64,000 nucleotides of DNA from Candidatus Poribacteria bacterium (GCA_022828145.1 JAJEJA010000079.1:1-64000); one strand, 5' to 3'. Positions 16,456 to 39,928 are shown, counted from the first letter of the stretch. Numbers and translations: made by a program. Notes: generated by a model from the sequence alone, not told the origin.

Positions 16456-18069
16456 TTAAGGATGCGGTTCACCTGCTTTCGGTTTCTCCTTAGGCGCATT
16501 CGATTCCTCTCCGAAACGGATGTGTAACGAGGCACCTGGGGCATGTCGCTTTCCATATAGCACATGTTTAATGCCCCAAAAGGCAAATGTAGTGGTTATC
16601 ATGACTGCTAATCCCCATAACGCTACCTGCAACAACTCATCAGAAAATGAGACGGTACTTCCTGTCTGTTTAGGTACGGTATGCACGCTGATGGGTACCA
16701 ATACGGTGCAAATTATCGCGTTTAACTTTATCACACCCTCTGTAACCAATCTGTGCGGACTGAAATTGACCAACGCACGTTCAAAATTGAAAACAACCAT
16801 CCACCACAGTAATATAAGATAGAGTAGTTGTCCCCTTCCGATCCAATTCTCAGAAATAAAAGGAATCGGATCGCGAAGGTTAACTGCTAAGATAACAATT
16901 AGCGCTATGCTAAGTAAGATGTAAACGAGTTCAAACCACCCTATCCATCCTCTAGAATGACGTAACCATCCCACGACTGGTATCCCAAACATTTTTTCAG
17001 GAAGAGATTGAATAGTATCAACCCATGTTTGAACTGCTTTGCGATAATTGAGGTATGTCAACGCGATGATGACACAGAAAATTGTGAACATGTCCATCCA
17101 AGGCGGGAGAACAGGATCAATTTCCAATAGAGGTGTGCGATTCAGAACAGAGCCGAAAGCAACTGCTATTCCAATACCAAAGAGTAGACCTTGCAGCTGC
17201 TCCATGACACTGTGCCAATTCGTTTGGAGTCCTGTTCTAATGCAGAGTAACTTCAGCAATTGTCCGAAGGCAAACGCTATTCCTCCTGCTAAACCTACCA
17301 TCAAAGCGACATAAGCAACACCTGCAAGATTATACTGCCAGCAGTATACGAAAACAGCTGCAACCATCCCGACACATCCTGCCCAATTATCTCCTCGTGG
17401 AGGTGTCATCCGAAGTTTAAGTACGTTCACTAAGAGTAAGAACGCGGCAAACCAACCAACACCCATATAGAGTACAAGTGCCGTTCCCATATCCAGGCTT
17501 CCTCTAAATATGATGACGATAATAGATGCCACAATTGCGACTATTGCAGCTAACCAGTCCGAGTCATACCAATAAAGAGGACTTTCGTGCCGTTGCATCC
17601 GTTTCGTTGCAATCATACGGTCCATGACAACTGCCTGAAGTGACCATCCAATAAAGACAGCACAGATAGGAACAATAAACATTGTTAATGTGTTGTGCTC
17701 AGCATTTGCAATAAATGCGGGGAGTGCTGTTCCTGCTCCACCTAAAGCTGCCCACAGAAACCCGATGACGAATAGATTTGCAAAGCCGTAGAGCACTGTA
17801 GGTGAATGCGATGAATGTGAATAACCGACGACCTGCATATAGGACATACTGCCACCGAAAGACCAGCCTATTGCGCCGAACAGCGCGAAATAGTGTACAT
17901 AACGTAGCCAATCTTCTCGTCCAGATAGTAGAACAAGAGCGATTGCCGTTAATGCTCCTGGTAGTGCGGCGCCATATTCATGTCCGAAATTCCCGCGTAT
18001 TCCCCAACCAAGAGAGAGCGATAACCCGCACAATAACAACAGTTGCCAAGGAAGCGTTGTAATATCCAT
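16456..18069 (-). CDS. Polytopic membrane protein of unknown function
   Basis: A hydrophobic protein of 537 residues with about 12-14 predicted membrane segments, starting MDITTLPWQLLLLCGLSL. A Gly-rich polar motif lies early (WGIRGNFGHEYGAALPGAL). The C-terminal tail is cytoplasm-like and charged. I start at the ATG at 18069, three bases after the sulfatase stop, with AGGAG 13 nt upstream; a TTG at 18081 inside the sulfatase gene would sit too close to that site. Tight coupling to the sulfatase suggests a transporter or membrane partner for sulfated sugar use, which is only inference. No transporter family signature is recognised. Confidence 0.75.
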   Translation of the reverse strand: MDITTLPWQLLLLCGLSLSLGWGIRGNFGHEYGAALPGALTAIALVLLSGREDWLRYVHYFALFGAIGWSFGGSMSYMQVVGYSHSSHSPTVLYGFANLFVIGFLWAALGGAGTALPAFIANAEHNTLTMFIVPICAVFIGWSLQAVVMDRMIATKRMQRHESPLYWYDSDWLAAIVAIVASIIVIIFRGSLDMGTALVLYMGVGWFAAFLLLVNVLKLRMTPPRGDNWAGCVGMVAAVFVYCWQYNLAGVAYVALMVGLAGGIAFAFGQLLKLLCIRTGLQTNWHSVMEQLQGLLFGIGIAVAFGSVLNRTPLLEIDPVLPPWMDMFTIFCVIIALTYLNYRKAVQTWVDTIQSLPEKMFGIPVVGWLRHSRGWIGWFELVYILLSIALIVILAVNLRDPIPFISENWIGRGQLLYLILLWWMVVFNFERALVNFSPHRLVTEGVIKLNAIICTVLVPISVHTVPKQTGSTVSFSDELLQVALWGLAVMITTTFAFWGIKHVLYGKRHAPGASLHIRFGEESNAPKEKPKAGEPHP

Positions 18070-18071
18070 TA

Positions 18072-19487
18072 TTAACGCCAATCTCCTGTGACTTCTTGAT
18101 AAGGTGCGACCGGTTCAAATTCCTCATCGTAGTCCCCACCGTTGTGACTATTCTCGCAGGAGCGGAGCCATTCATGCAAGTTTGTACGGGTTTGCGTCAT
18201 AAGTTCGCGTTGTTCATCTACTAAGTTAGTCGTTTCTGCGCGGTCTTCAATCATGTCAAAACATAAATCTTCGCTGCCATCCCCCGATAGGTTTGTCAGG
18301 CATTTATATCGGTTATCCATCAGTGCGATGGTGGGTGCATCAAACATTGAGCGTTTACCACTGATGAAGCGGTACGGGATCGGTGTTGGACGTTCTGTTC
18401 TGTCTCCTTCAATAGTCGGCAGTAGACTGATCCCGTCAATTGGACGATTATCTGGCTTTTGATAGTTCATCACTTCGGCGATTGTTGGGAAGTAATCCAA
18501 CGTGCTGCACGGCATGTTCACGACGCGTCCAGGGTCTGCATGATTTGGCCAGTGCAGTAATGCGGGGACACCGACTCCGCCATCAAACAGAGATCGTTTT
18601 CGTCCGCGCAAGCCGCCTGTTGATCCCCGATTCCGACCATCTCTTCCTGTGCGACCTTCAGGACCATTGTCCGAACAGAACCAGATCATCGTGTTCTGTG
18701 ATACACCCCACGCTTCCAATGTATGATACAGTCGTCCCACCTGATCGTCTATTGCGGTAATACATCCGTAATAGTGTTGTTCAGCTTCACTATAGGCGGC
18801 ATACATTGCGCGATATTCTGGTCCTGCGACAACTGGTGTATGGGGTGCATGAAACCAGATTGTGGTAAAGAACGGTTCGGCATTTTCGATAGCGTTTTCA
18901 ATAAACGGAATCGCACGGTCCATTATCACTCTCGAATCGCATCCTTCCAAATTCTCCGTTGCCAGTTTTCCCACCCCATCATTACTTTCGTAGTACGGTG
19001 ATGCCCAAGGACGGTCCAGACGTTTTCCGTTCCCTTGAATCCCAACGGCGGGATCCCATGTTGGTACCGCATATTCTGTGGCAAAAGAGGTATCGTAATC
19101 CCGTTCCCACGGTGGTGCATAATTTCGCGTTGGATTACGATTAGGTTTACCTGAATAATTCCGGTCTAATGTACCCAGATGCCATTTACCAAAATGTCCA
19201 GTTGTGTATTGATATGACTTCAACATGCGTGCGAGGGTTATCTCTTGTGCGGGTAAATGTCCACGGTTGGCATGTGTTACCCCGTATCGGAAATAGTGTC
19301 GTCCGGTTAAACAGGTGCCGCGTGTTGGGGAGCAGACGGGACCTCCTGCATAAAAACGCGTGAATCGGATACCGTTGTTCGCTAATTTATCCAGATGCGG
19401 GGTTTTGATTATCTCATTTCCGTTAAATTCGACATCGCCATATCCCAGGTCATCGCACATCATTAGAACTATATTTGGACGGTTCAT
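18072..19487 (-). CDS. Formylglycine-dependent sulfatase (arylsulfatase A-like)
   Basis: Hydrolyses sulfate esters. The N-terminal metal site is NIVLMMCDDLGYGD, the nucleophile motif is GPVCSPTRGTCLTGR with Cys52 as the formylglycine precursor (CxPxR type), and later family signatures include GHFGKWHLGTL and WFCSDNGPEGR. It has 471 residues. No signal peptide is present with the chosen ATG at 19487, which has a GGAG site 7 nt upstream. A longer frame up to 19892 is rejected because it overlaps the divergent gene and lacks family similarity. Without a signal the enzyme would be cytoplasmic, or exported only if an upstream start were used. Natural substrate unknown; a sulfated glycan or aryl sulfate is plausible. 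Confidence 0.9.
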   Translation of the reverse strand: MNRPNIVLMMCDDLGYGDVEFNGNEIIKTPHLDKLANNGIRFTRFYAGGPVCSPTRGTCLTGRHYFRYGVTHANRGHLPAQEITLARMLKSYQYTTGHFGKWHLGTLDRNYSGKPNRNPTRNYAPPWERDYDTSFATEYAVPTWDPAVGIQGNGKRLDRPWASPYYESNDGVGKLATENLEGCDSRVIMDRAIPFIENAIENAEPFFTTIWFHAPHTPVVAGPEYRAMYAAYSEAEQHYYGCITAIDDQVGRLYHTLEAWGVSQNTMIWFCSDNGPEGRTGRDGRNRGSTGGLRGRKRSLFDGGVGVPALLHWPNHADPGRVVNMPCSTLDYFPTIAEVMNYQKPDNRPIDGISLLPTIEGDRTERPTPIPYRFISGKRSMFDAPTIALMDNRYKCLTNLSGDGSEDLCFDMIEDRAETTNLVDEQRELMTQTRTNLHEWLRSCENSHNGGDYDEEFEPVAPYQEVTGDWR

Positions 19488-19530
19488 ATTTGATTCTCCA
19501 TTTCTGTCCATAGTATGTGGTATTTCGGTT

Positions 19531-19559
19531 AATTTACAAGAAATTAGAATTAATGTCAA
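19531..19559 (-). promoter_or_regulatory. Sigma70-type promoter for the sulfatase unit
   Basis: On the minus strand TTGACA (19559-19554) is followed after exactly 17 nt by TAAATT (19536-19531). Transcription would start near 19524, about 37 nt before the sulfatase ATG. The divergent SprA-like gene begins only 142 bp away, so its promoter shares this intergenic stretch, but I could not pick it with confidence. Confidence 0.6.
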
Positions 19560-19629
19560 GTTGCATAAGGATGTAATGTAAACCCAAATTCTGCTTTTCC
19601 GTTTTAAAGAAAATATAACATCTGAAATC

Positions 19630-22600
19630 ATGGAGTATACACTTTTGAAGCCAAAGTCTAAAAACTGTTTTCTGTTTTCTGTTGTGCTTTCCATATTTTT
19701 GATTGCAATACCTGCTTTTACTGCTGATAAAGACCCATCAACATCGCCCGACACAGAACAACCCCAACAAGATACGACTCCTATCTCTGAATCTGAGAAT
19801 CCTTTTAACAAGCAATCCAAAAAGGATCCTAACCCAAAAAATATTTGGATACTGCCAAAACCTGAAACTAAACCGGATGATCCACCAATCACTGAAGACG
19901 AAGATTTAGAAATACCCGCACGACGTCAAGTCCTGATACCCTACTTAGAAACACTAAGACGTTGGAGATATGCGCCTGAATTGGGAGACCTTTCAGAACT
20001 ATACGATTGGAGACCCCGACAAGAGAGAGAAACACGAGGCATTGACCTACCGATGGACTCAAACCTCCAGATTACAGGCTTTCAATCCGTCACTGTTGAA
20101 GTCAACAAAACACACTACTTTGGTGAAGGTGATTTGAACCGATACGGTGGCTACGGTTACAGCAGCTACGGAAACTACGGCTCTGGACTTGATCTCGGTC
20201 TAAGTTCCTCTTATGGATATGAAGACTTCGGTTATAGCAGCGGGTTCGGAGGTGGATACGACAGCTTTGGTACAGGTTACGGGAGTGGATACAGTGGATA
20301 CAGTAGCTATGGTAGTGTTCCTCGCTCAACAGGCATTAACATCAGACAACAACAACAGATCGGATTACACGGTCGGGTAGGAGAACGAACACATATCGCG
20401 GTAGACTACAATGCAGGTGATACTTTTGGTGGCGGATATGGGGGTTCAGGATACGGTGGTTTTGGCGGACTCGGTGGTGCGAAAGAACAGAAAATAAAAA
20501 TCTGGTATGAGGGTAAACCTGACAGTTTTATCAAAACAATCTCTTTCGGAGACATCACGCTGAGTTTACCCAACACACGTTTTTTGAACATAAATCGGAA
20601 TCTGTTCGGACTTGAAGGTGTCTTTCAATATAAAAACACACGACTCACCGCTTTCGGCTCAAGAAGCAAAGGCGTGCGTGAAGTCAGGACATTCCGTGGA
20701 CAATCTCGAAGAGCCAGCTTCGGATATGGACCGAGAGGGATTCAGATTGCAGATGCAAATTATGTTAAAAATAGGTTTTATCTAATTCACAAGGATGAAG
20801 ACGGTTTGCTGCACAACGCGTACCTACCGATAAAACAGGGAAGTGTAGAAATCTATATTGATGATAACGTCGTCGGTAACAACCAAGGCGGAAAACGCAC
20901 CAGTCAAGGTTACTTTAATCCACAGTTCCCCGGACAAGATTATAACATTGACTATGAAACAGGTGAAATTGAATTCCTTACCTCTATCTCAACAAGTTAT
21001 ACCATCGTCGTGGCTTACGAGTACCTCGGTGATGGAGGCGGTAGTGTTGGAAATCCAGGGAACGTCTTTGCTGATGAAAACGGAGATGGTTCCATAGATG
21101 AAGAGGGTGAAGAAATCGGTTATGTTGTTCTAAAGGAGAAAGGATTTCGAGGTACAGCAGCTTCACACGTCTATAGTCTCGGTAATCGCAATATAAATCC
21201 ACGCGATTTTCAACTCAGTATAATCAGACAGGGGGAGAGTGAAACATTTCAGACGGATACTGGGCTCGTCCCATTTATTGAGATATTCGGATTAGACCAA
21301 AATGGAGATGGTGTCGTTGACCCTGAGTTCATAGATTATGACAGAGGCATCTTACGTTTTCCGTATTTTAACCCGTTCTATATTACGGATCCTGAGCATC
21401 CGTTCTATCGCTATAGAGATTCCATCAATAATGAAGCGATATATCTTGAAACCCTCCGAAGTACTGACCAGGTCTATACTATCGTCGCTGATTATTCGTA
21501 TCAATCCGAATACTATAACGTCGGTTTATTCGTGATACCAGATAGCGAAACTGTTCGTGTAAACGGTAGACTTGTAACTCGTGGCACAGATTACATAATG
21601 ACTTATGAGGTAGGAACGATTAATTTTTTCATTGAGATTGATGAATTTGATGAGATCGTTGTTGAATTTGAAAGAACTCCTTTCGGTGGCGGTTCACAAC
21701 AAGCTGTCGCTGGTTTGTGGTTAGAATATACACATAAACCTAAACCGAAGTCAGAAAGAGAACAGAACCTTGAGGACAGATTCAATCGCTTAGGCGGTAT
21801 GCGTCAGTCCCAGAATGGATTGTCACAGATTGGATTGGATACGAATAACCTTAACAATAGAGATCAGTTTTCGGGGCCTTCCTCGATTATTACAGGTCCT
21901 CAATTCGGTTCACGTTCAGGTTTTGGAAGAAGCAACGCAGGTTTTGGCTCTGGATTCGGTGGAGACTTTGGTACTGGATATAGCAGCTACGGCAGTTTCG
22001 GAGGAAGTTCACGCATCGGTTCAAATTATTATGGTGGATACGGGAGTAGCATGAACTATTTCAATCCAGTCTACCAGAAAGGATTCAATATATCCACTGG
22101 GTATATCATCACAACAGGACAGAGAATAGTTGAGATACCGAATGTCAACGAAGTGCCGAACCGGCTACAAGCCTTCAATATCAACACAAGTTTCGGTAGA
22201 GAGTTTAACATGGCTTGGTTGGTAAACCCTATTCCGTTTGTCAATTTGCAAAGATTTCCTGTCTCCGTTGACTTTAGTGGAGAAACCGCCTATTCTCATA
22301 ACAACCCAAATAGCATTGGCGTAGCATTGATTGATAGCATGGAAGGTGTAAGAGAAACGACAACAGTTCCGACAATAAAGTATAGATGGAATCCGAGTAG
22401 CGTCCCGTATATTCCTGATGAAAACCGAACAGAAACGCCTACACATGATTATTATACAATACCGACACAAGAGAATAGAGTTCTCTTTAAGGTAGCATTA
22501 AAAGATAGGGAAGAGTCCGAAGCCGTTGGGAACTACATGCGTAACCGAGATGTACCTGCGTCATCCATACAACCTTTATCCCTTTCAACTGAAGAACGTT

Positions 22601-25600
22601 TGATAATGGAAATTGGTTATGAATTTACAGATGTAGTGTCAGAATGGGGCGGGTTTTCGAACGGTATATCAAATTCAGGTGTTGATTTTTCAGAACGCGG
22701 GTTTGTAGAAATGTGGTTACGCGTTCAGGGAGATGATGACATTACACTTTACCTCAACATCGGTGCTGTCAGTGAAGATTCAGATTCAGATGATAGGCTG
22801 GATAGTGAAGACCTGCCCCAATCCTTAGTAGATTCCAATAAGGATAGTATTGTTGACGCGCTTGATCTTGACTTGGAGAACTTGCCTGAATCCCAACGAT
22901 ACGCTGGTAACGGTAGGTTGGAGACAGATGAGGATGTTGGATGGCAATATGATGGTCCCATTCAATCTGAATCGTTTGGGGCAGACAACCAAATTTTGGA
23001 TAGTGAAGATTTGAACGGAGATGGTGTTCTGGACACCGTTGATGCGTATTTTCAGGTTGCGATCCCTCTCAATGAGATTCCTAACGAATGGATCAAAGGT
23101 CAAAACAGTAACGGCTGGACATTTCTTAGCATTCCTATAGCAGAATTTATAGCCGAAGGAACTCGTATTCCCAGTTTAGTGTTCGTTCAGCATGTCCGGT
23201 TTTGGTTGATGAAGAACCGTCCCGGTAACGTATCGGGTACATTTCAATGGGCATCGATTGAAATAGTTGGCAACAGATGGCAACAGGGAATAATTACGCA
23301 ATCCCCCCAATTGTGGAACGCAGCATCTACCTCTGCCACTGCTATACAACTGACTGAACAACGGGTCGTTGACGACACACTTGAAAGGTTTATTGTCGGT
23401 ACAAAAGATAACTTCAGTTATGACGACTATCAGACTGCTTATAACGAAATTGAAGATGATGAACTTTTTAGAAAATTACACCCATACACGGCAGAAGCGG
23501 TCGGTTTTCAGACACGGCAACAACGCGAACAGACCTTAAGCCTTGAATACTATCTCTATCCGGGTTCACACGGTATCACCTCAAAGCAACTGAAGGGTTT
23601 CACACAGAGTGAAGGTCAGGATTTTAGTCAACACGATACGTTACGTCTATGGTTATACGGTGACAAGAGTGATACGACTTTTGTGCTACAACTTGCCCCC
23701 AATGTAGCCACAGGTTACCGGAGCACATACTACAGCTCTGATCCGTTTCTCAACCAACCACAACCGGAAGAAGATGTGAATGTTTTTGAGAATCTGACCG
23801 ACTATTATGAATATACCTTGCCGATAGATTTTGATGGTTGGAAACTTATAGAGATTGACCTACGGGACAATATCCGAAATGAATATCCAGACAGGGTTGA
23901 TAATGAAAACAGTGAGATAGGTGTGGCGAATCAAGATGCCGTTACAACATCTAATCCTAACGAGCCGGATGGACATCCAGATGGTTTTACTGTGAGAGGG
24001 ACAGGAGCGAGCAGAACACAACTCACAGTAAAGAACATAGGTGGTATACTGCTTGGCATCCGTAACGACACAGATCAGGAAATCAGCGGTGAAGTATGGG
24101 TAAACGAAATCCATCTCGGTGATCCACTCATTCGCGCGGGTTGGGCGCGTCGGGGTAATATGTCCATCTCACTGGGCAGCATCGTCCGACTGCGTGGCGG
24201 TTATGCAAGTCAAGATAAAGATTTTGAAAGCGGTGCCGGTGAAATCGGACGACAACGTTTATCATCCCGTGGTTATAGCACCACAAACAACGACTATAAC
24301 ATTAATGCGGATGTTACTATCTTTCGGTGGTTACCTATCAGATATTCCATCAATGAACAGGAATCTGAAACGGAGGCACTACGCGGCAGTTACACATCCT
24401 TTCAAAGTGGTAAGAGTGAAACGTTGAGACGAGATGTCTCTGTGCAATTTAATCGAAATCCGTATCCAAACCTGGGGTTTGCCTATAACTATCAAGACTT
24501 TTGGAACGAACGACAAGGAACACAGATCAGTCATTTATATACAGGTACCTTCCGATACGACATCGGTTCAAAACTTGGCTTCAATGTACAATATCGGCAT
24601 GAAGACATTATCGCAAAACCTGAAACGGCGACGGATACCTCCACAGGTGTTTCTTCCTACTATAGTTACGGCTATGGCAGGAATCGTGACGAAAAAACAG
24701 ATAGTGGTTCCATAAAACTAAGCATCAGTCCAATAAACGCGTTTAGTCTCAGTCCAACGTACGATGTGAGAAGAACACACGAGAAAAGGGATCCGAACAG
24801 ATTTAGATCATCATACTCTTTTAGCGGGCCAGTAGAAAATGTACTTGGCGATACACCCTCTGTAGAAGAAGAGGAAACCGAACCCGAATTTACGATTGCT
24901 GAAAGGGAACATCGAATTTCCCTGACACCCCGTCTGAACCGTGATCTCATCGGACTCCGGCCTACAGTAACAAGTCGAGTCAGTTTCAGGGAGAACTGGT
25001 TCACCGAACAGAAAGACGCATCACTTAACGGCAATGTCAATTTCGGTTTGAACTTACGCATTCAAAAGTGGCTCGGTTGGATCTTGCCTAAAAATCCTAA
25101 AAAGAAGGCACAACCTACATCAAATAACGGTGCCAGGAATAAGTTAAATGGGCAAGCAGACAAAGTAGAAGTGATGGGCCCCGATACACAAACGCAACTG
25201 GATGCGACGCTTCAGCAGTTGCGCGATCGCAATGTTGATGAAGCGGAAATCCAAGAATTTCTGGAAAATCAGAACGATTGGATTAATCGGGATAAAGCAG
25301 AGATGACGACAGCAGAAAATATCTCCACCGCATCAGTAAAGGAAGGCATGCTACACCGCATCATCAATACATTTACGATCAATACGAATGCAAACTTCAC
25401 CGCTACAGAGTCATTTCGTCAACTGGAACCTGGCAAATCACTGTTAGAAATCTGGAGACTTGAACAGGATGCAGAGGAACGTACGAATTCTCGGAAAAGC
25501 AATCGCTATACCTTACGTACCTCTATAGAACCCTGGAAATGGCTATCATTCGGAACAAACCTTAGTTTTGCAGATAGTTTCCGAAAAAGCTACGGTAGCA

Positions 25601-26175
25601 CATATACTTCCCATGCGGAAACTTATGAAGGGGATATTAAGATCAATTCACGACAAGCCTCCAGTTTTCAGCTACGGTATAGTTATACCATACGTGAAGA
25701 GGCGAACCTTGATGTAACAACAAGCGATAGTTCGTCACATACACCTTCCTTGAGTTGGATACACAAATGGGGTCAAGAGACGAGAACTTCATTAGGTGTT
25801 CGGACGACCATCCGTGATTATCTCCGTCGCGGCATTGAGAGTAAAGCGTTCATCGTTACCCCGAACTTTAGCATTGACTACCGTTACCGCACGGAAGGTG
25901 GTATCCGTGTACCCTTTTTCGGTAGGATTCCACTTAAACACGATCTTGACTTGACGAATACACTTTCTATGGCAATCCGCAGAGAAACATACGGTGCGAA
26001 CAGAGAAGAACGGTCTGAACGGTATGAGACAACATTACGCGCAGGATACAAACTGAGTAATCATCTCACGGCAAATCTGCATTTAGGATTGAGTTACAAC
26101 CACGACAGGGTTGAGGAGGGGAGAGATTATCTCTCTATCGCAAGCGCGCTGACAGTAAGAGGTGAATTTCAGTAA
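19630..26175 (+). CDS. sprA-like: SprA-like giant outer-membrane translocon protein (type IX secretion type)
   Basis: A 2181-residue exported protein with signal peptide (CFLFSVVLSIFLIAIPAFTA). The order of elements parallels SprA of gliding Bacteroidota: a barrel strand plus INIRQQQQIGLHGRVGERTH, then FIKTISFGDITLSLPNT, NRNLFGLEGVFQYKNTRLT, a Lys/Arg-rich GSRSKGVREVRTFRGQ, and ANYVKNRFYLI. Two Gly/Tyr/Ser-rich low-complexity insertions lie near residues 170-235 and 760-810. Acidic calcium-type loops DENGDGSIDEEGE, DQNGDGVVD and DLNGDGVLD occur near 482, 556 and 1128. The C-terminal 700 residues are amphipathic strands typical of a barrel. Size and order agree with SprA (about 2400). The ATG at 19630 lacks a ribosome site; a TTG at 19645 has GGAG 9 nt upstream and is an alternative start. 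Family assignment is from remembered motifs. Confidence 0.75.
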   Translation: MEYTLLKPKSKNCFLFSVVLSIFLIAIPAFTADKDPSTSPDTEQPQQDTTPISESENPFNKQSKKDPNPKNIWILPKPETKPDDPPITEDEDLEIPARRQVLIPYLETLRRWRYAPELGDLSELYDWRPRQERETRGIDLPMDSNLQITGFQSVTVEVNKTHYFGEGDLNRYGGYGYSSYGNYGSGLDLGLSSSYGYEDFGYSSGFGGGYDSFGTGYGSGYSGYSSYGSVPRSTGINIRQQQQIGLHGRVGERTHIAVDYNAGDTFGGGYGGSGYGGFGGLGGAKEQKIKIWYEGKPDSFIKTISFGDITLSLPNTRFLNINRNLFGLEGVFQYKNTRLTAFGSRSKGVREVRTFRGQSRRASFGYGPRGIQIADANYVKNRFYLIHKDEDGLLHNAYLPIKQGSVEIYIDDNVVGNNQGGKRTSQGYFNPQFPGQDYNIDYETGEIEFLTSISTSYTIVVAYEYLGDGGGSVGNPGNVFADENGDGSIDEEGEEIGYVVLKEKGFRGTAASHVYSLGNRNINPRDFQLSIIRQGESETFQTDTGLVPFIEIFGLDQNGDGVVDPEFIDYDRGILRFPYFNPFYITDPEHPFYRYRDSINNEAIYLETLRSTDQVYTIVADYSYQSEYYNVGLFVIPDSETVRVNGRLVTRGTDYIMTYEVGTINFFIEIDEFDEIVVEFERTPFGGGSQQAVAGLWLEYTHKPKPKSEREQNLEDRFNRLGGMRQSQNGLSQIGLDTNNLNNRDQFSGPSSIITGPQFGSRSGFGRSNAGFGSGFGGDFGTGYSSYGSFGGSSRIGSNYYGGYGSSMNYFNPVYQKGFNISTGYIITTGQRIVEIPNVNEVPNRLQAFNINTSFGREFNMAWLVNPIPFVNLQRFPVSVDFSGETAYSHNNPNSIGVALIDSMEGVRETTTVPTIKYRWNPSSVPYIPDENRTETPTHDYYTIPTQENRVLFKVALKDREESEAVGNYMRNRDVPASSIQPLSLSTEERLIMEIGYEFTDVVSEWGGFSNGISNSGVDFSERGFVEMWLRVQGDDDITLYLNIGAVSEDSDSDDRLDSEDLPQSLVDSNKDSIVDALDLDLENLPESQRYAGNGRLETDEDVGWQYDGPIQSESFGADNQILDSEDLNGDGVLDTVDAYFQVAIPLNEIPNEWIKGQNSNGWTFLSIPIAEFIAEGTRIPSLVFVQHVRFWLMKNRPGNVSGTFQWASIEIVGNRWQQGIITQSPQLWNAASTSATAIQLTEQRVVDDTLERFIVGTKDNFSYDDYQTAYNEIEDDELFRKLHPYTAEAVGFQTRQQREQTLSLEYYLYPGSHGITSKQLKGFTQSEGQDFSQHDTLRLWLYGDKSDTTFVLQLAPNVATGYRSTYYSSDPFLNQPQPEEDVNVFENLTDYYEYTLPIDFDGWKLIEIDLRDNIRNEYPDRVDNENSEIGVANQDAVTTSNPNEPDGHPDGFTVRGTGASRTQLTVKNIGGILLGIRNDTDQEISGEVWVNEIHLGDPLIRAGWARRGNMSISLGSIVRLRGGYASQDKDFESGAGEIGRQRLSSRGYSTTNNDYNINADVTIFRWLPIRYSINEQESETEALRGSYTSFQSGKSETLRRDVSVQFNRNPYPNLGFAYNYQDFWNERQGTQISHLYTGTFRYDIGSKLGFNVQYRHEDIIAKPETATDTSTGVSSYYSYGYGRNRDEKTDSGSIKLSISPINAFSLSPTYDVRRTHEKRDPNRFRSSYSFSGPVENVLGDTPSVEEEETEPEFTIAEREHRISLTPRLNRDLIGLRPTVTSRVSFRENWFTEQKDASLNGNVNFGLNLRIQKWLGWILPKNPKKKAQPTSNNGARNKLNGQADKVEVMGPDTQTQLDATLQQLRDRNVDEAEIQEFLENQNDWINRDKAEMTTAENISTASVKEGMLHRIINTFTINTNANFTATESFRQLEPGKSLLEIWRLEQDAEERTNSRKSNRYTLRTSIEPWKWLSFGTNLSFADSFRKSYGSTYTSHAETYEGDIKINSRQASSFQLRYSYTIREEANLDVTTSDSSSHTPSLSWIHKWGQETRTSLGVRTTIRDYLRRGIESKAFIVTPNFSIDYRYRTEGGIRVPFFGRIPLKHDLDLTNTLSMAIRRETYGANREERSERYETTLRAGYKLSNHLTANLHLGLSYNHDRVEEGRDYLSIASALTVRGEFQ

Positions 26176-26326: not shown

Positions 26327-27811
26327 TTAGTTAAAAGCGATGACTTGGACATGATCTACAATCAAGGATGGTAGAATACCGAGCAGTATAACGCCGATTG
26401 CTGCAAGAACGAGTCCGATAACTAAGGTTGACGGATATGGTTTGAACTCTAATTCATCTTCAGGTTCACGCATATACATCGTTACGATGACGCGTAAATA
26501 GTAGAACGCTGAGATAGCTGTATTGATAGCACCGACAATTACGAGCCAGATAAGCCAGTTATTTTCAGCTTCAACTCCAGCTTCAACAGCGGATTTGAAG
26601 ATATAGAATTTTCCTACAAACCCAGCAAATGGGGGAAAACCCGCAAGGGATAGTAACATGAGTGACATTAACATACCGATTAAAGGTTTTTTGAAACCGA
26701 GTCCTGCATAATCGGAAATCATCAAACTCTCTCCATCAGCAGTTCTTGCTAAGATGACTGCGCCGAACGCTCCGATATTCATAACACAGTAAATAAATAG
26801 ATACATAATCGCACTTGACGTTCCCTCGCTGTTTGCCGCTGCTAAACCGATCAATACGTATCCAGCGTGTGCAATACTTGAATATGCCAGCATCCGTTTT
26901 ATGTTTGTCTGTGCAATAGCGATGACGTTTCCAACAGTCATTGTTAGTATTGCCAAGATGATGAGAACCGTGTTCCATTCAGTATCAATATTTGGTAATG
27001 CTTCCATGAATATTCTTACAAACGCTGCAAATCCTGCTGCTTTTGGTCCGGCAGAGATGAATGCAGCGATTGTGGTCGGTGCGCCTTCATAAACATCTGG
27101 TGCCCATTGATGGAACGGAACGATTGCGACTTTGAAACCGAAGCCAACGATGAGTAAGAATACACCAGCAAATAAAAATGGACCGGGTAGTGCAGTTTCG
27201 CTTTCAGCGGTAAGGTCAGTTAAGTATTGGGCAATTTCTGGAATGCTGGTTGTACCGGTCGCACCGTAAATTAAGGCGATTCCGTATAGAAAAAATGCAC
27301 TTGCGAACGCACCAAGCAGAAGGTATTTCATTCCCGCTTCACTTGAGGCAGGATTGTCCCGGAAATAGCCTGCTAAGACATACAACGATAATGACATCAG
27401 TTCTAAGCCGAGGAAAACGATAATCAGTTCATTTCCTGCAGCCATCAACATCATGCCAAGGGTTGCAAGTAGGATAAGGAGGTAGTAGGGACCCTGTTTT
27501 TTATCGTCTCTGCCTAAATAACTTAATGAGATGAGTACAACCAGAATTGTTGAAACGAGGAAGATTATATTAAAAAAGAGAGAATAGGCATCTACCTCAA
27601 ACATACCTTCGAATTGCGTTCCAAATGACTCAGTCCGTAGCATTCTAACGGATTCCACCAAGGCAATTCCTGCTCCAGCGATAGTTATATAGCCAAGGAC
27701 CTTTTTTGAAATTGCGTCGAAAAGGTCAAAGATTAGGACAATAAGCATCGTTGCAACGATCACAAGTGATGGCATGATGAGTGACCAATTAATAATAATG
27801 TCAGATGGCAT
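26327..27811 (-). CDS. nuoN: NADH-quinone oxidoreductase subunit N
   Basis: One of the three antiporter-like proton-pumping membrane subunits of complex I. The 494 residues contain about 14 membrane segments with the Proton_antipo_M core (LIIVFLGLELMSLSLYVLAG with the essential Glu, and AIVPFHQWAPDVYEGAPT with its Lys-region, and RMLAYSSIAHAGYVLIGLAA). The ATG at 27811 has GGGAGA 8 nt upstream. It is the last gene of the nuo run and is separated from nuoM by an antiporter gene. Confidence 0.95.
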   Translation of the reverse strand: MPSDIIINWSLIMPSLVIVATMLIVLIFDLFDAISKKVLGYITIAGAGIALVESVRMLRTESFGTQFEGMFEVDAYSLFFNIIFLVSTILVVLISLSYLGRDDKKQGPYYLLILLATLGMMLMAAGNELIIVFLGLELMSLSLYVLAGYFRDNPASSEAGMKYLLLGAFASAFFLYGIALIYGATGTTSIPEIAQYLTDLTAESETALPGPFLFAGVFLLIVGFGFKVAIVPFHQWAPDVYEGAPTTIAAFISAGPKAAGFAAFVRIFMEALPNIDTEWNTVLIILAILTMTVGNVIAIAQTNIKRMLAYSSIAHAGYVLIGLAAANSEGTSSAIMYLFIYCVMNIGAFGAVILARTADGESLMISDYAGLGFKKPLIGMLMSLMLLSLAGFPPFAGFVGKFYIFKSAVEAGVEAENNWLIWLVIVGAINTAISAFYYLRVIVTMYMREPEDELEFKPYPSTLVIGLVLAAIGVILLGILPSLIVDHVQVIAFN

Positions 27812-27879
27812 TCAGAATCTCCCGTTTTATATAAAATGTAGAACAGACTGTAGAATAATCATTAAAAACATTGACTTGC

Positions 27880-29373
27880 CTATCGCAGGAACACAAAAGT
27901 TACAACTACGAAAAGCGGGACTAAAATTACGATTGACCATAACATATAGCCGAAGAAACTTGGCATGCGGATGCCACTCTGTTCGGCAATCGCCTTTACC
28001 ATGAAATTGGGTGCGTTGCCGATATAGGTATTCGCGCCCATGAAAACGGCTCCCACAGAAATGGCAGTTAGCAATCTAACATACTGTATGTGATTAGGAT
28101 CAGTCAATTCAGACATCTTCAAGATACCTGATGCTTCAGCTTCGGTAAGTTGCAACTGTCCGAGGGCAGTGTTGAAGAATGTCAGATATGTCGGAGCATT
28201 GTCTAAGAAACTGGACAGCACACCTGTTACCCAGAAGTAGTGTAGGGGTTCTTTTATAGCGACGATTAGCCAACTCATTGCACCATCTTTACCCACACCG
28301 AGAATCGTCAACGCAGGAATAATTGTTATAAAAATACCCGCAAAGACTTTAGCCACCTCTTCAATTGGTTCCCAAGAAAATTCGTTTTCTTGCCGTAATT
28401 TGCCGCTAAATGGCGTGAATTTGAGTGACAATAACCCCATCAATACAATCAACACATCACGCGCAATGTTCTGCCAATATACATGTACATCAAATATGTT
28501 GATTTCTCCCCATTTGAAAGTTCCACTCATCAATACAGCGGCGATGATACCGAATAGGAAAATCAAGTTAAAGAGGCCATCAATCCGAATCGGTTCGTTG
28601 GTGCCATCATCTGGTACTACACCACCTTCCCGTTTAAACATGAAAGTGTCTATGATAAAGAAAAGTGCTATTAAGATAACGCTAATAAATAGCATGTGTG
28701 GAAATAGTGCTGTTGTTGTCCAGAAGAAGGGGACTCCGTGGAGAAAACCTAAGAAGAGTGGTGGGTCTCCCAAAGGTGTTAGGGAACCTCCAATGTTACT
28801 TACCAGAAAGATGAAGAAAACAACCAAGTGAATTTTGCTTTTACGATACGCGTTGGCTCGAATTAGCGGACGAATGAGGAGCATGGATGCACCTGTCGTG
28901 CCTATCCAAGAAGCAATCGCGGTGCCAATTAAAAGCAAAAGTGTGTTGACTACTGGTGTGCCGCGAAGTGTCCCGCGCACGAGAATTCCCCCAGCAACTG
29001 TGAACAGACCCCATAAGAGAACAATAAACGGGATATAGTCTATAAGATAGATGTATAAAATATCGTGAAAAGCGTCCCCTCTGTAAGCTATCAGGTACGG
29101 TATTCCGAAAATTAATGCCCATGCCAGCGACATCTTCCCACCGTGATGCACGAGAAAATGAGAATCAAATATTAGTGGGAGAAGGGCAATTGATAGGAGT
29201 ATACCGACAAATGGTATGATACTCCAAAGTGGCAAATTTTTACCATCAACTTTATAGTGTCCGTGCGCTTCGCCGTTTGCGTCCTCATCGGCACCGAAGA
29301 CATCTATTGAAACGGAAAGGGTAAGTCCAAGAACAACAAATAGTATTAGACAGGAAGCGATTTTTGATTTCAC
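27880..29373 (-). CDS. NhaD/ArsB-superfamily sodium:proton antiporter embedded in the nuo operon
   Basis: A 497-residue ion transporter with a leading hydrophobic segment that may be a cleaved signal (ending VFGADEDANG) and about 11-12 membrane helices. The hallmark motifs are SNIGGSLTPLGDPPLFLGFL in the first half and SFLDNAPTYLTFFNTALGQL in the second, which match the paired NhaD-type repeats. It would exchange Na+ for H+ across the inner membrane. Translation begins at GTG 29373, overlapping the nuoM stop by one base, with GAGGAGG 13 nt upstream. Its place between nuoM and nuoN implies co-expression with complex I and perhaps conversion of proton to sodium gradient. Substrate is inferred. 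Confidence 0.85.
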   Translation of the reverse strand: MKSKIASCLILFVVLGLTLSVSIDVFGADEDANGEAHGHYKVDGKNLPLWSIIPFVGILLSIALLPLIFDSHFLVHHGGKMSLAWALIFGIPYLIAYRGDAFHDILYIYLIDYIPFIVLLWGLFTVAGGILVRGTLRGTPVVNTLLLLIGTAIASWIGTTGASMLLIRPLIRANAYRKSKIHLVVFFIFLVSNIGGSLTPLGDPPLFLGFLHGVPFFWTTTALFPHMLFISVILIALFFIIDTFMFKREGGVVPDDGTNEPIRIDGLFNLIFLFGIIAAVLMSGTFKWGEINIFDVHVYWQNIARDVLIVLMGLLSLKFTPFSGKLRQENEFSWEPIEEVAKVFAGIFITIIPALTILGVGKDGAMSWLIVAIKEPLHYFWVTGVLSSFLDNAPTYLTFFNTALGQLQLTEAEASGILKMSELTDPNHIQYVRLLTAISVGAVFMGANTYIGNAPNFMVKAIAEQSGIRMPSFFGYMLWSIVILVPLFVVVTFVFLR

Positions 29374-30947
29374 TATTTCGTCTGTGCCTCCTCTTCGTGC
29401 GATAGTCGTATTTCAGTGTTTTGTTTCAACAAGGGTTTTTGTGTTTCTCCAGGATTATTGACTTGTCCGACTGCTGGGGTGCTGCGGGGAACTTGAACTT
29501 TTGTAGCAACTTTCTCCACAGAGGTTTCCATCGGTTTCAAGAACGTATTAGGAAAAACACCAATCCAAACGATGAAGACTAATATCGGTACCAAGACAGC
29601 GATTTCGCGTGAGTTTAAATCAGGTAAAGATTCGTTTGTTTTATCCAGTTTTCCGAACATCACCCGTTGGAACATCCACAGCATGTAGACTGCCGCCAAG
29701 ATTACGCCTGTTGTTGCAAAGACGACGTACCATTTTGAAAAAGCACCTTCAACAAAACTACCGAGTAGGATCATAAATTCACCTACGAATCCGTTTAGAC
29801 CTGGTAATCCTATGGAGGATAGTGTTACGATGAGGAAAATTGATGCAAAGATAGGCATTCGTTTTGCTAATCCGCCAAAATCAACAATCATTCGGCTGTG
29901 CCTTCGTTCATATATCATGCCGACTAATAGGAACAACGCACCCGTGCTGAGTCCGTGATTTACCATCTGCAAGACGCTTCCCTGAATAGCCTCATGACTT
30001 TGCGAAAAGAGTCCGAGCACAACAAAGCCGAGATGACTCACACTGGAGTATGCTACTAACTTCTTGAGGTCTGGTTGTACCATCGCTACTAATGCGCCAT
30101 AGATAATACCGATTACAGCGAGTGTGACGATCCACGGCGTGTGTAGCGCTGCTGCCTCTGGAAAGAGGGGTAAGCAGAATCGGATTATGCCATAAGTACC
30201 CATTTTGAGTAGTACCCCCGCAAGGATAACACTCCCAACTGTGGGTGCTTCAACGTGCGCGTCAGGGAGCCATGTATGGAAAGGAAATAGGGGGACTTTT
30301 ATTGCAAAGGCGATAAAAAATGCAAGGAATAGATAACTGTCATGAGTAAATCGTCCACTTAATGTTGTAAGGTCAAAACTATTGCCATTTTGGAAGTAGA
30401 GTGCTAAAATGCCGACTAACATGAGCGCACTACCTGCCATTGTATAAAGGACGAACTTTATAGTGGCATAAATCCTACGTTCACCACCCCAAATCCCGAT
30501 GAGGAAATACATTGGGATTAGCATTGCTTCCCAGAATACAAAGAAGAGGAATAGGTCTAACGAGCAGAAGACACCTAACATGCCGGTTTCCAGTGCCAGA
30601 AGTGACATCATAAAACCGTTCAGTCCCTTCTCTACCGAATTCCATGCGGCAAGAATACATACCGGTGTCAGGAACGTTGTGAGTAGAATTAACCACAACG
30701 AAATACCGTCAATGCCGATGTGATAACTGATGCCTAAACCGGTAATCCAATTCTCCTTTTCAACAAGTTGGAACGCAGTGTCAGTCGCTGTTTCTTCAAA
30801 TCCAGTGTAAAGTCCTATTGAGATAACAAATGTGAGTAGACTGATGGTAAATGCTATACCTTTTACAACAGATGGTCCCATACCTCTGAGCAATGCAATC
30901 GCTATTACACCGAGAAGTGGTAAAAAAATAACTAATGAGAGTAGCAA
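29373..30947 (-). CDS. nuoM: NADH-quinone oxidoreductase subunit M
   Basis: Second antiporter-like pump subunit of complex I, 524 residues. Family signs are FFVFWEAMLIPMYFLIGIWGG with the pump Glu, KVPLFPFHTWLPDAHVEAPT and KKLVAYSSVSHLGFVVLGLF. The start is TTG at 30947 with AAAGGAG 8 nt upstream. A 213-bp gap containing a small hairpin separates it from nuoL. It overlaps the downstream antiporter by one base. Confidence 0.96.
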   Translation of the reverse strand: MLLSLVIFLPLLGVIAIALLRGMGPSVVKGIAFTISLLTFVISIGLYTGFEETATDTAFQLVEKENWITGLGISYHIGIDGISLWLILLTTFLTPVCILAAWNSVEKGLNGFMMSLLALETGMLGVFCSLDLFLFFVFWEAMLIPMYFLIGIWGGERRIYATIKFVLYTMAGSALMLVGILALYFQNGNSFDLTTLSGRFTHDSYLFLAFFIAFAIKVPLFPFHTWLPDAHVEAPTVGSVILAGVLLKMGTYGIIRFCLPLFPEAAALHTPWIVTLAVIGIIYGALVAMVQPDLKKLVAYSSVSHLGFVVLGLFSQSHEAIQGSVLQMVNHGLSTGALFLLVGMIYERRHSRMIVDFGGLAKRMPIFASIFLIVTLSSIGLPGLNGFVGEFMILLGSFVEGAFSKWYVVFATTGVILAAVYMLWMFQRVMFGKLDKTNESLPDLNSREIAVLVPILVFIVWIGVFPNTFLKPMETSVEKVATKVQVPRSTPAVGQVNNPGETQKPLLKQNTEIRLSHEEEAQTK

Positions 30948-31001
30948 AAAGAACTCCTTTAATGGATGGTGCTACCTCAGCACCTATAATTTAATTCTAT
31001 T

Positions 31002-31026
31002 GTCGGGTTTTGTTCCTCTACCCGAC
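31002..31026. repeat. Short hairpin in the nuoL-nuoM gap, family 3-like
   Basis: GTCGGGT (31002-31008) pairs with ACCCGAC (31020-31026) across an 11-nt loop, followed by CTACGAAA. It resembles a shortened form of the GTTGGGTT/AACCCAAC element seen at 11464-11618. A second small hairpin, GGTGC/GCACC, is at 30968-30984. The 213-bp gap holds no gene. Confidence 0.55.
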
Positions 31027-31160
31027 CTACGAAATAATGCAATACTGTAAACCCTAAATGCTTGCCAAAAAAATATATTTTTGTCAGTCCCACCAACTTG
31101 GCGTAATCAAGATAAGTAACCAATCCAAGTAGGAAAAACTAAGATAACTTCTTAATCACA

Positions 31161-33092
31161 TTAGTTAACGAAGAACAAGTAATAGGCAAGGAATAAGACT
31201 ATGCCAATAACCATTGACAGAATATACGCTTGGACAACCCCTGTCTGCAGTCGCCTAAACAATCCCCCAATTACTCGTATAAGTGCTGCTACACCGTTGA
31301 CAATTCCATCAATAATACCAACATCAAAAAGTTTCCACAATAAGAAGTGTGAAGCGTTTTTGATGGGTTGGACGATGAAGGTATTGTATATCTCATCAAC
31401 ATAGAATTTGTTAGCAACAAGCCAAGAAAAATCCTTTTTTTGTAATGCATTTGTTGGTTCTGCTGCAGGTGCCCGATCTTTATAACGTGTCCAAGCAAAA
31501 GCAATACCTGCAATGCCAACGATTGAAGAAATCGCCATAAACAGGAGTACACTCCCTGGTGCCTTGTCTGCCTTTGGGAAAACGTCTTCTGTGAAATGAT
31601 GGAACCAACTATCATGTCCACCCACACCTAAGAGTAAACCGATCAGCGCAGCAGGGACTGCCAGTATTACCAGTGGCAACCACATCACTGCTGGTGATTC
31701 ATGAACGTGTGAGTCGACTTCAGGTTCAACGCGAGATTTTCCGTAGAAGGTTACGAAGATGAGACGGAACATGTAGAACGCAGTCAGGAATGCTGTGGCT
31801 AATCCGATGATGTAAATTATCTTTGAACTTCCCCATGCGCTGTGCAGGATTTCGTCTTTACTCCAGAACCCACTGAGTAAGGGTGCCCCTGCAATTGCCA
31901 ATGCACCGACTAAAAATGTTGCATGTGTAATCGGCAATTTTTTCCGCAATCCTCCCATTTTTCGTATGTCCAATTCGTTTGCCATGGCATGCATCACACT
32001 ACCGGCTGTTAGGAACATGAGACCTTTGAAGAATGCATGTGTCACCAAGTGGAAAATACCGGAGGCGTAAGCACCGATTCCAACACCGACAAACATATAT
32101 CCGAGTTGACTGACGGTGGAATATGCCAGAATCCGTTTGATGTCGTTCTGTTTGAGTGCAATGATTGCAGCGAACAGTGCCGTAAGGACACCGATCCAAG
32201 CGACAACGACTCCTGTTCCTGCCAGATTATAGAGTACAGCGGAACGTGCTATCATATAGACACCCGCAGTTACCATTGTGGCAGCATGTATTAACGCACT
32301 GACAGGTGTTGGACCTTCCATAGCATCGGGTAGCCAGACGTAAAGCGGGAGCTGTGCTGATTTTCCGACTGCTCCGACAAAGAGGAGCAATGTCGCAACC
32401 ATGAGTGTAACTTTTGTAGTTTCTCCAAAAACTACATTAATAGCACTAGTACCAGTTTCTGCTTTGTCAAATATGGTTACAAAATCAAGGCTTTCGAACG
32501 CTGCAAACAACGTAAACATCCCTAACAGGAAACCGAAATCGCCAATTCTATTGACAATAAACGCCTTTTTACCAGCATCGGTAGCGGATTGTTTTTCATA
32601 CCAGAAACCGATCAACAGATAAGAGCAGAGACCGACACCTTCCCACCCAACAAACATCATCAGATAGTTGTTGCCGAGAACGAGGATGAGCATTGCAAAC
32701 ACAAATAGGTTGAGATAAGCGAAATAACGCGTATAGCCTTCATCACCGTGCATGTAGCCGATGGAATATACGTGAATGAGAAATCCGACACCTGTGATGA
32801 CCAATAACATCACCGTTGTCAACGCATCAACATGGAATCCGATGTCAACACTGAACTTCCCACCGGCAATCCATTTATAGACAAATCCATCATCTCCTTC
32901 AAGCGTTGCGTTACTATCAATGTTGATAGTAACGAAGGCAATAATTGAGCAGATAAGAGAGATAAACACCGCAAGCGCGCCAATAGTTCCGCTAAGTTTC
33001 TCGTTCCCTTTTAGCCATTTGCTGAACAACCCGTTAATCAAAAACCCGACAAGTGGTGAAATTAATAAGATAATAATTAGTTCTTTTGACAT
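31161..33092 (-). CDS. nuoL: NADH-quinone oxidoreductase subunit L
   Basis: Largest antiporter-like subunit of complex I, 643 residues with about 15-16 membrane segments. Recognised by MFVGWEGVGLCSYLLIGFWY, AQLPLYVWLPDAMEGPTPVSALIHAATMVTAG and KRILAYSTVSQLGYMFVGVG. The C-terminal part should contain the long lateral helix and last transmembrane anchor (VVQAYILSMVIGIVLFLAYY). It starts 3 bp after the nuoK stop. Length is slightly above the E. coli protein (613). Confidence 0.97.
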   Translation of the reverse strand: MSKELIIILLISPLVGFLINGLFSKWLKGNEKLSGTIGALAVFISLICSIIAFVTINIDSNATLEGDDGFVYKWIAGGKFSVDIGFHVDALTTVMLLVITGVGFLIHVYSIGYMHGDEGYTRYFAYLNLFVFAMLILVLGNNYLMMFVGWEGVGLCSYLLIGFWYEKQSATDAGKKAFIVNRIGDFGFLLGMFTLFAAFESLDFVTIFDKAETGTSAINVVFGETTKVTLMVATLLLFVGAVGKSAQLPLYVWLPDAMEGPTPVSALIHAATMVTAGVYMIARSAVLYNLAGTGVVVAWIGVLTALFAAIIALKQNDIKRILAYSTVSQLGYMFVGVGIGAYASGIFHLVTHAFFKGLMFLTAGSVMHAMANELDIRKMGGLRKKLPITHATFLVGALAIAGAPLLSGFWSKDEILHSAWGSSKIIYIIGLATAFLTAFYMFRLIFVTFYGKSRVEPEVDSHVHESPAVMWLPLVILAVPAALIGLLLGVGGHDSWFHHFTEDVFPKADKAPGSVLLFMAISSIVGIAGIAFAWTRYKDRAPAAEPTNALQKKDFSWLVANKFYVDEIYNTFIVQPIKNASHFLLWKLFDVGIIDGIVNGVAALIRVIGGLFRRLQTGVVQAYILSMVIGIVLFLAYYLFFVN

Positions 33093-33095
33093 GTT

Positions 33096-33401
33096 TTATC
33101 CTTTTAGCGAATTGATTTCATCCACATTGATTGTTTCGCGATGTTTGAAAACACTGACAATAATTGCTAATCCGATGGCAACTTCAGCGGCAGCAACAGC
33201 CATCACAAAAATGACGAACAGTTGTCCCTCTGCTTGTCCAAGGTGTCGACTGATTGCTACAAAAGCGAGATTCGCTGCGTTCAGCATCAGTTCAATACAC
33301 ATAAATATGATAATTGCGTTTCTACGGATGAGGACACCGATAACGCCTATTGTAAATAGGAGTGCACTTAAAACGAGATAATATTCTAATGGTAATGACA
33401 T
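33096..33401 (-). CDS. nuoK: NADH-quinone oxidoreductase subunit K
   Basis: A 101-residue, three-helix membrane subunit of complex I. The membrane Glu residues of the family are seen in [16 protein letters not shown] and [16 protein letters not shown]. It is closely followed by nuoL and lies 58 bp after nuoJ. Confidence 0.97.
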
Positions 33402-33459
33402 ATAAACCTTCTCTATATTTTCATAAATGCCAGCTTAATATTTTTTGGTTGAGTTTTTT

Positions 33460-34005
33460 CTAATTTTCTGGTTGTTTATCCCGTTTCACTAAGACAATTA
33501 CACCGATTAATGCTGCCAACAGAATGAGCGATGTAACTTCAAACGGTAAGAGGTAGTCGCTAAATAACAGTCTGCCAATATCATAGGTTTCAATCGGTTT
33601 ATTGGCAAGTGCAGCAGCTGCTTCTTTTGCTGCGTCTGATGCAACTGCAGTATCATTCTTGAGTGCTCTCACGGCAATGTAAACACCTTCTACAGCCAAT
33701 AGGATACCCAAAATAATCGCTACGCCTTTTAGTTTACCCGTTAATGCTCCCTTTGCAGAAAGTGTGCCGAGGTTTAGGAGCATAATTACGAAAAGGAACA
33801 GCACCATAATTGCCCCTGCATACACAATGACTTGAACGGCAGCGACGAAGTGCGCGCCTAACAACACAAACAATCCCGCTTGAGAAAAAAAAGTTACAAT
33901 CAGCGATAGCGCGCTATAGATAGGATGACGAAACGAAATTACGGCGATCGCACCGATAATTGAGACAGTACCAAAGATGATAAATACAATTAGTTCTGGA
34001 TTCAT
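33460..34005 (-). CDS. nuoJ: NADH-quinone oxidoreductase subunit J
   Basis: A 181-residue, five-helix membrane subunit of complex I. The family segments are IFGTVSIIGAIAVISFRHPIY, GAHFVAAVQVIVYAGAIMVLFLFVIML, and the terminal helix EVTSLILLAALIGVIVLVKRD. It follows nuoH directly (14-bp gap), so the usual nuoI between H and J is missing here. Confidence 0.95.
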   Translation of the reverse strand: MNPELIVFIIFGTVSIIGAIAVISFRHPIYSALSLIVTFFSQAGLFVLLGAHFVAAVQVIVYAGAIMVLFLFVIMLLNLGTLSAKGALTGKLKGVAIILGILLAVEGVYIAVRALKNDTAVASDAAKEAAAALANKPIETYDIGRLLFSDYLLPFEVTSLILLAALIGVIVLVKRDKQPEN

Positions 34006-34019
34006 TTACAACACGTCTC

Positions 34020-35243: not shown

Positions 35244-35304
35244 GAATTCTCCTTCTTGATGACGCCCTTCTTGTTGACGGCAACAATGTAAAACATCATT
35301 GAAG

Positions 35305-36942: not shown

Positions 36943-36947
36943 ATATA

Positions 36948-38426: not shown

Positions 38427-38462
38427 ATTTTCCCTCTACATATTGTTTCTTATTTTATCCTA

Positions 38463-38492
38463 TAGGTTGGGTTGAACGAAATGAACCCAACA
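38463..38492. repeat. Short GTTGGGTT inverted repeat, family 3
   Basis: TTGGGTT (38467-38473) pairs with AACCCAA (38484-38490), flanked by TAGG on the left. It is a shortened relative of the inner arms of the MITE-like element at 11464-11618. It lies between the endonuclease VII-like gene and nuoF, at one border of the inserted gene pair. Confidence 0.7.
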
Positions 38493-38514
38493 ATTTGTCG
38501 TTGATAACCTATTC

Positions 38515-38907
38515 TTACGACAGAAATGTAAGCGTTCCTTTGATCCACTCTATAGCTCTTTTAAGGATAGTAATGTTATCATCAAAATTGCCAAGTCCAG
38601 TGTTGCATCTGTTGCAAATGTAACCCCTAATTTTCCCTGTTTTATGGTCATGATCTAAATTTACATCTCTGGTTGTCTGAATGGTTATAGTTCTTTCACA
38701 AACTTTACAATAAAACTCCTCACCTATTTGGGGTTTAGGGTGCTTAGTCTCATATTCCCGTCTGACTTTTGCCGGTATTGCTTTCTTATACGCGCGACAT
38801 TCTTTACATTCACTCCGCCAAACACTTGGTCGGTTTCGTTCAAACGCGTCTATTGGCAAAAGTCTTCGGCATTTCTTACAAATGCGGGGTTTTGCTTCTT
38901 GAGCCAC
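38515..38907 (-). CDS. Endonuclease VII-like HNH nuclease
   Basis: A 130-residue protein with four paired Cys motifs (CKKC, CKEC, CKVC, CNRC) and the core NLDHDHKTGKIRGYICNRCNTGLGNFDDN. This is the signature of the recombination endonuclease VII family, known from T4 gp49 and many phages, where it cuts branched DNA; related proteins act as nicking or restriction HNH enzymes. It starts at GTG 38907, preceded by GGAGG with suitable spacing, and overlaps almost directly with the methyltransferase stop (38909). The pair is probably co-translated. Target unknown. Confidence 0.85.
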   Translation of the reverse strand: MAQEAKPRICKKCRRLLPIDAFERNRPSVWRSECKECRAYKKAIPAKVRREYETKHPKPQIGEEFYCKVCERTITIQTTRDVNLDHDHKTGKIRGYICNRCNTGLGNFDDNITILKRAIEWIKGTLTFLS

Positions 38908-38908
38908 C

Positions 38909-39721: not shown

Positions 39722-39928
39722 CTTACAACTCCTTTGAACACCATCCTTAAGAACTTCCGATAGATGTAGTTGTTCTATATATAGACTCACGCGAATTGAA
39801 CAGAGAAGGATATATTTTGCTGAATGTCATTATCTCGTTATTGAATTTTAATATTGAAAAAGTAATTCCATATTTGTATTTCTTCAAATTGTATCAATAT
39901 TGTTAAGGCTGCACTTTCTTACGCAAAT

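Follow-up and report, generated by a model that had tools for sequence, protein, structure and literature searches.

The question raised by this locus is whether bacteria outside the Bacteroidota possess the type 9 export gate SprA and, if so, how much of the remaining secretion machinery accompanies it. A 2014 study saw sorting domains in Poribacteria but no Por structural genes, and said of the pathway that it "remains to be revealed" (PMC3909097). A 2016 survey recorded the T9SS in Bacteroidetes only (PMC4793230), a 2025 paper calls SprA, by then reported in the FCB group, "FCB-specific" (PMC12611786), and the T9SS has been inferred to have first evolved within Bacteroidota gliding (PMC12635249). 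No report of SprA or T9SS machinery in Poribacteria beyond the 2014 statement was found in the open-access literature. NCBI lists Poribacteria as a candidate phylum without a superphylum, represented here by MAGs and single-cell genomes only; marker genes place it near Aerophobetes/Hydrogenedentes and PVC (PMC3909097).

The sprA-like gene and its surroundings

The window, the whole 64,000-nucleotide stretch of Candidatus Poribacteria DNA that was analyzed, carries the sprA-like gene with the following parts:

19630..26175, + strand: sprA-like gene for an outer-membrane translocon protein; open reading frame with ATG start, 2181 aa, intact
19630..19725, + strand: predicted Sec signal peptide, residues 1-32, suggested by eye from a basic N-terminus, a hydrophobic core and an AFTA/D end
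19918..23304, + strand: N-terminal half, residues 97-1225, predicted to hold the initial strands of the barrel and the extracellular cap (AlphaFold and Foldseek)
20527..20571, + strand: motif FIKTISFGDITLSLP, residues 300-314, from an alignment of 34 Poribacteria sequences
22981..24351, + strand: block of strongest similarity to TIGR04189 (profile positions 1082-1503), from the profile search
22996..23034, + strand: motif LDSEDLNGDGVLD, residues 1123-1135, near-invariant in the Poribacterial alignment
24034..24345, + strand: match to Pfam SprA_N (PF14349), residues 1469-1572, 25.6 bits, E 7e-6
24145..26172, + strand: C-terminal barrel part, residues 1506-2181, with about 25 long predicted strands (AlphaFold and Foldseek)

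The preliminary description had proposed, from the order of a few strings, that this protein follows SprA, and every string quoted there lies in the intact frame in that order: FIKTISFGDITLSLP (residues 300-314), NLFGLEGVFQYKNTRLT (324-340), a basic loop (342-361) and ANYVKNRFYL (376-385). Residues F306, G307, D308, L311, L313 and P314 are invariant among the 34 aligned Poribacteria SprA sequences. In a canonical-type SprA, the first motif aligns with RIEVGNVTLDAP, and LDSEDLNGDGVLD matches LDTEDLNGDNRLD.

The 5' end of sprA overlaps an antisense sulfatase frame (18072-19892). This frame is 606 aa long here versus 471 aa in the nearest relative, so the sulfatase probably begins near 19487 in reality, which would make the overlap artificial. 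Next to it, 16456-18081 (- strand) encodes a conserved 541-aa protein that matches no Pfam or NCBIfam model and adjoins sprA in a few close relatives. On the other side, two genes break up a complex I (nuo) cluster (26327-40453, - strand): that of a CitMHS_2 transporter (27880-29373), which separates two genes for antiporter-like subunits, and that of an N6/N4 DNA methylase (38909-39790). At the beginning of the window, a giant repeat frame of at least 2593 aa (2-7780, - strand), with a signal peptide, Ca-stabilised/Ig-like repeats and tandem units 270 and 333 bp long, is cut by the contig start; the C-terminus, the expected place of any sorting domain, lies beyond the assembled contig.

Profile and fold evidence for SprA

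The NCBIfam model TIGR04189 (Sov/SprA) matches the 2181-aa protein in five stretches at 148.3 bits (E 1.6e-43), below the curated cut-off of 200, and PF14349 (SprA_N) just misses its cut-off of 27 at the 25.6 bits given above. The window protein reaches neither curated threshold and is outside the curated SprA equivalog. Searches of PDB sequences with the single protein or a 34-row profile reached no SprA chain, and fold comparison was needed.

Two AlphaFold models of moderate confidence were made with the Poribacterial alignment, covering residues 97-1225 (mean pLDDT 58) and 1090-2181 (mean pLDDT 67). When these were compared with the whole PDB by Foldseek, the four top matches of each half were the SprA entries 8gl6, 8gl8, 6h3i and 6h3j. 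The N-terminal model matches 8gl6 at E 4.7e-30 (best non-SprA entry, 1.8e-4) and the C-terminal model at E 4.7e-18 (best non-SprA entry, 1.7e-7), with alignments spanning about 1300 and 1280 columns, respectively. The TM-scores to SprA are low, since each model covers half of the chain but is set against a complete one, and since its domain arrangement is uncertain. The C-terminal model shows about 25 long strands and the N-terminal half several; counted on a two-piece model of moderate confidence, they are consistent with the closed 36-strand barrel predicted earlier. The Foldseek matches support the SprA fold, with its giant barrel and extracellular cap. Taken together, profile and fold make the protein almost certainly a diverged SprA homologue, as the preliminary description had supposed.

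Cargo, sortase and carrier

Three kinds of partner were found: a PorV/PorQ-type carrier, a PorU sortase with a sorting domain, and cargo with type-A C-terminal domains. In the same genome, 62 type-A sorting domains exceed the TIGR04183 cut-off, and 16 other Poribacteria genomes give 21-75 hits each; examples follow the pattern NYPNPFNPET-WIPYQL...IY...GxxVRTL...WDGKNxxGExVASGVYFYxFTAG...KMLIxK. PF13860 (FlgD_ig) overlaps these domains.

Three large C25 peptidases (1779-2229 aa) each combine the peptidase domain with a C25 propeptide and, at the C-terminus, a sorting or FlgD_ig domain; the PorU GHG and Cys residues are in place. One copy scores 423.8 bits with the PorU model NF033707 (cut-off 420); the other two fall below, at 378.6 and 350.1 bits. 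A PorV-family gene starts 4 bp downstream of the above-cut-off porU; porU and porV are neighbors in Bacteroidota too. Two further proteins of the PorV family reach 203 and 193 bits with NF033709 (cut-off 90), and none of the several paralogues reaches the strict PorV equivalog cut-off of 250 bits. Both the PorV family (PF19572, above cut-off) and C25 were present in all 19 Poribacteria genomes searched. PorV-family proteins and FlgD-like C-terminal domains are widespread; each is weak evidence by itself and counts only jointly with the rest. The combination makes it likely that a type 9-like export system is present, in its outer-membrane half and with its cargo.

A probably missing motor

The inner part of the machinery gave a different result. 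GldM has no credible match in 85 Poribacteria genomes, covered by a search of 21 genomes and then one of 194 that includes the whole phylum; the same search scored a positive control at 362 bits in a genome outside the phylum (G145). The G145 locus (C1:3466000-3482000, L176) has GldK, GldL, GldM and GldN all above the cut-offs of the same models in hmmscan, which shows that the models work. GldL gave no credible match and GldN none at all in six-frame searches of 19 Poribacteria genomes, run with no positive control in the same search. The absence of Gld proteins thus refers to six-frame searches with GldL, GldM and GldN profiles; the GldK profile overlaps a common sulfatase-modifying family. 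Two weak GldM matches both fall in one genus, and the one in G000 proved on examination to be an NtrC-type regulator; a weak GldL match adjoining sprA in G004 is a generic coiled coil. On balance, the canonical Gld motor is probably truly absent from Poribacteria.

The preliminary description had envisaged a T9SS or a related secretion machine in this genome, to be checked with profiles for its components. PorU, the PorV family and about 62 sorting-domain hits bear this out in part, with SprA matched below cut-off and porV found; the complete T9SS falls away, GldL, GldM and GldN not having been found. The outcomes named as counting against it were no SprA match or no other T9SS gene; what emerged is a SprA match accompanied by PorU, PorV and sorting domains.

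It is unlikely, though with a real chance, that a complete T9SS is present and that its motor and ring have diverged too far for the GldL, GldM and GldN profiles. Poribacterial SprA shares only 16-26% identity with the SprA proteins of other lineages, and fast-evolving partners could escape detection; the profiles tried were those three, two of them without an in-search control. However, the same kind of search still finds the other parts of the system, and the two weak GldM matches, confined as they are to one genus, lend little to the idea once the examined one is known to be a regulator. Furthermore, a GldM match is also missing from genomes with far more canonical SprA (G172, 1130 bits; G085, 672 bits; G128, 657 bits), so that divergence would need to be restricted to the motor.

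A second possibility is that another motor has taken over. GldLM and TolQR/ExbBD are proton-driven motors of one class, and a cluster in G000 (C57 3995-9842, L205) encodes an outer-membrane lipoprotein of about 1100 aa belonging to no known family, an ExbB and an ExbD, possibly a new energised outer-membrane system. Its ExbB carries a periplasmic N-terminal CarboxypepD_reg (carboxypeptidase-regulatory-like) domain and is accompanied by either a single ExbD or a pair of them. The cluster is retained in 8 genomes from across the phylum, and its ExbB is the only strong MotA/ExbB match in G000, which has one further marginal match, and in the single-contig G046; these points favor a TolQR/ExbBD-type motor replacing GldLM as energiser. 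Yet the cluster has no genetic link to SprA, PorU or PorV, elsewhere in the phylum genomes carry 2-6 such genes, and the ExbB is nearer TolQ (103 bits) and may just serve Tol-Pal or TonB-like uptake. The replacement is therefore doubtful, and to name this cluster as the SprA energiser is a guess only.

A proposed export route

The best reading is that the energy chain is absent, replaced or unrecognisable. In the route proposed here, Sec would move large surface proteins with a C-terminal type-A sorting domain to the periplasm; this cargo would enter the SprA pore, be captured by a PorV-family carrier and leave SprA sideways. PorU would then trim it and probably anchor it. The route is drawn from homology to Bacteroidota; what was computed here is that the parts are present and that the profile matches are absent. 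In Flavobacterium johnsoniae, cargo binds PorV loops within SprA and leaves via a lateral opening; once the motor is removed, cargo stays trapped in SprA, extraction being thought to require energy (PMC10994853). By analogy, the Poribacterial variant probably works like a T9SS at the outer membrane. With no recognisable GldL/GldM motor or GldN, extraction from SprA would need some other drive: a different energiser, the folding of the cargo, or proteins too diverged to be recognised. With the motor not found, the Poribacterial system is not classed as a canonical T9SS.

It is improbable that the SprA homologue has some other job (e.g., glycan, lipid or S-layer export) and that what look like sorting domains are no more than common FlgD-like C-terminal domains. 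Such a reading could appeal to the overlap of PF13860 with the sorting domains and to the neighborhood of sprA: over about 75 loci no conserved partner gene adjoins it and ties it to secretion genes, and its genus-specific neighbors are sugar hydrolases, dehydrogenases and DUF6785 proteins. Against it stands the phylum-wide co-occurrence of SprA, PorU with its active site, the linkage of PorU to PorV, and large secreted proteins with type-A domains by the dozen.

Distribution in the phylum

The relatives of the window protein from named genomes are all from Candidatus Poribacteria, at up to 91% identity. Homologues through the phylum are about 40-93% identical, have intact frames and align over their full length. 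A phylum-wide profile search found SprA in 84 of 85 Poribacteria genomes and in all 56 good ones, including single-contig assemblies; the sole genome lacking a match, G030, is 81% complete. The host is not a member of the Bacteroidota, as had been suspected from the sequence of the locus. In a tree with 26 other SprA sequences, the Poribacterial proteins form one clade (100% SH-aLRT); the tree is a quick one, and its deep joins are unreliable. The single clade is as expected for old vertical inheritance.

Only one genome, G006, exceeded the TIGR04189 cut-off, through a foreign-looking contig (C30, L114) with a second, canonical-type SprA related to that of another lineage; on alignment and tree this copy is probably a contaminant, and it was set aside. 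That the window's own sprA is likewise a contaminating or misbinned Bacteroidota contig has virtually no probability: the data are MAGs and G006 does hold such a contig, but the same nuo and sulfatase genes flank sprA in related MAGs, the gene forms a separate clade, and its phylum-wide distribution, single-contig genomes included, excludes contamination.

The type 9-like export system, with a SprA gate, sorting-domain cargo and a differing energy step, is best regarded as a putative ancestral trait of Poribacteria; we consider it likely that this system exists and that its gate was present in the ancestor of the phylum.

Beyond Poribacteria

The search of 194 genomes also gave a SprA match in 41 of about 110 non-Poribacteria lineages, 26 of them above cut-off, and a GldM match in none of those 41. 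Many of these lineages may belong to the FCB group, and the wider motorless pattern is a lead, not a result. In G145, by comparison, no SprA match accompanies GldKLMN among the matches listed, which may reflect a first-look step limit for the 2319-position profile. There is perhaps slightly less than an even chance that type 9 export is widespread outside Bacteroidota in the form of an older outer-membrane module (SprA, PorV, PorU and cargo) that runs on another energiser or on no energiser at all, the GldKLMN chain and gliding being later additions in Bacteroidota. If true, this would reverse the published inference of a T9SS origin in Bacteroidota gliding (PMC12635249).

For Poribacteria, the findings supply a candidate for the missing export gate of the sorting-domain proteins seen in 2014 (PMC3909097). 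Among these are many eukaryote-like repeat proteins, which may be turned towards the sponge host. The range of SprA extends beyond Bacteroidota and, by the placement in PMC3909097, beyond the FCB group, contrary to its description as "FCB-specific" (PMC12611786). Since extraction by GldLM is considered the energy-requiring step (PMC10994853), a motorless phylum-wide system would make the power source of type 9 export directly testable.

Comparison with known systems

Nothing like the Bacteroidota GldKLMN chain was found, GldM being absent in 85 genomes and GldL and GldN in 19; unlike known SprA systems, Poribacteria thus yielded no GldLM motor and no GldN ring subunit. With the TolQR/ExbBD proton motors they share a conserved ExbB/ExbD cluster, whose action on SprA is a guess. 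Compared with T9SS PorU and PorV (NF033707, PF19572, NF033709), Poribacteria differ in having three large PorU-like copies (1779-2229 aa), two below the equivalog cut-off, and several PorV paralogues, none above the strict 250-bit cut-off; they agree in the C25 domain with its propeptide, the GHG and Cys residues, the C-terminal sorting domain and a PorV-family gene directly downstream of one PorU. The Poribacterial protein differs from SprA (TIGR04189, PF14349) in its 16-26% identity, its scores below the curated cut-offs and its glycine/tyrosine-rich loops, and resembles it in length class, order of conserved blocks, the EDLNGD motif, the predicted barrel and cap fold, the best PDB fold match of both halves, and its company of PorV and PorU partners and type-A cargo.
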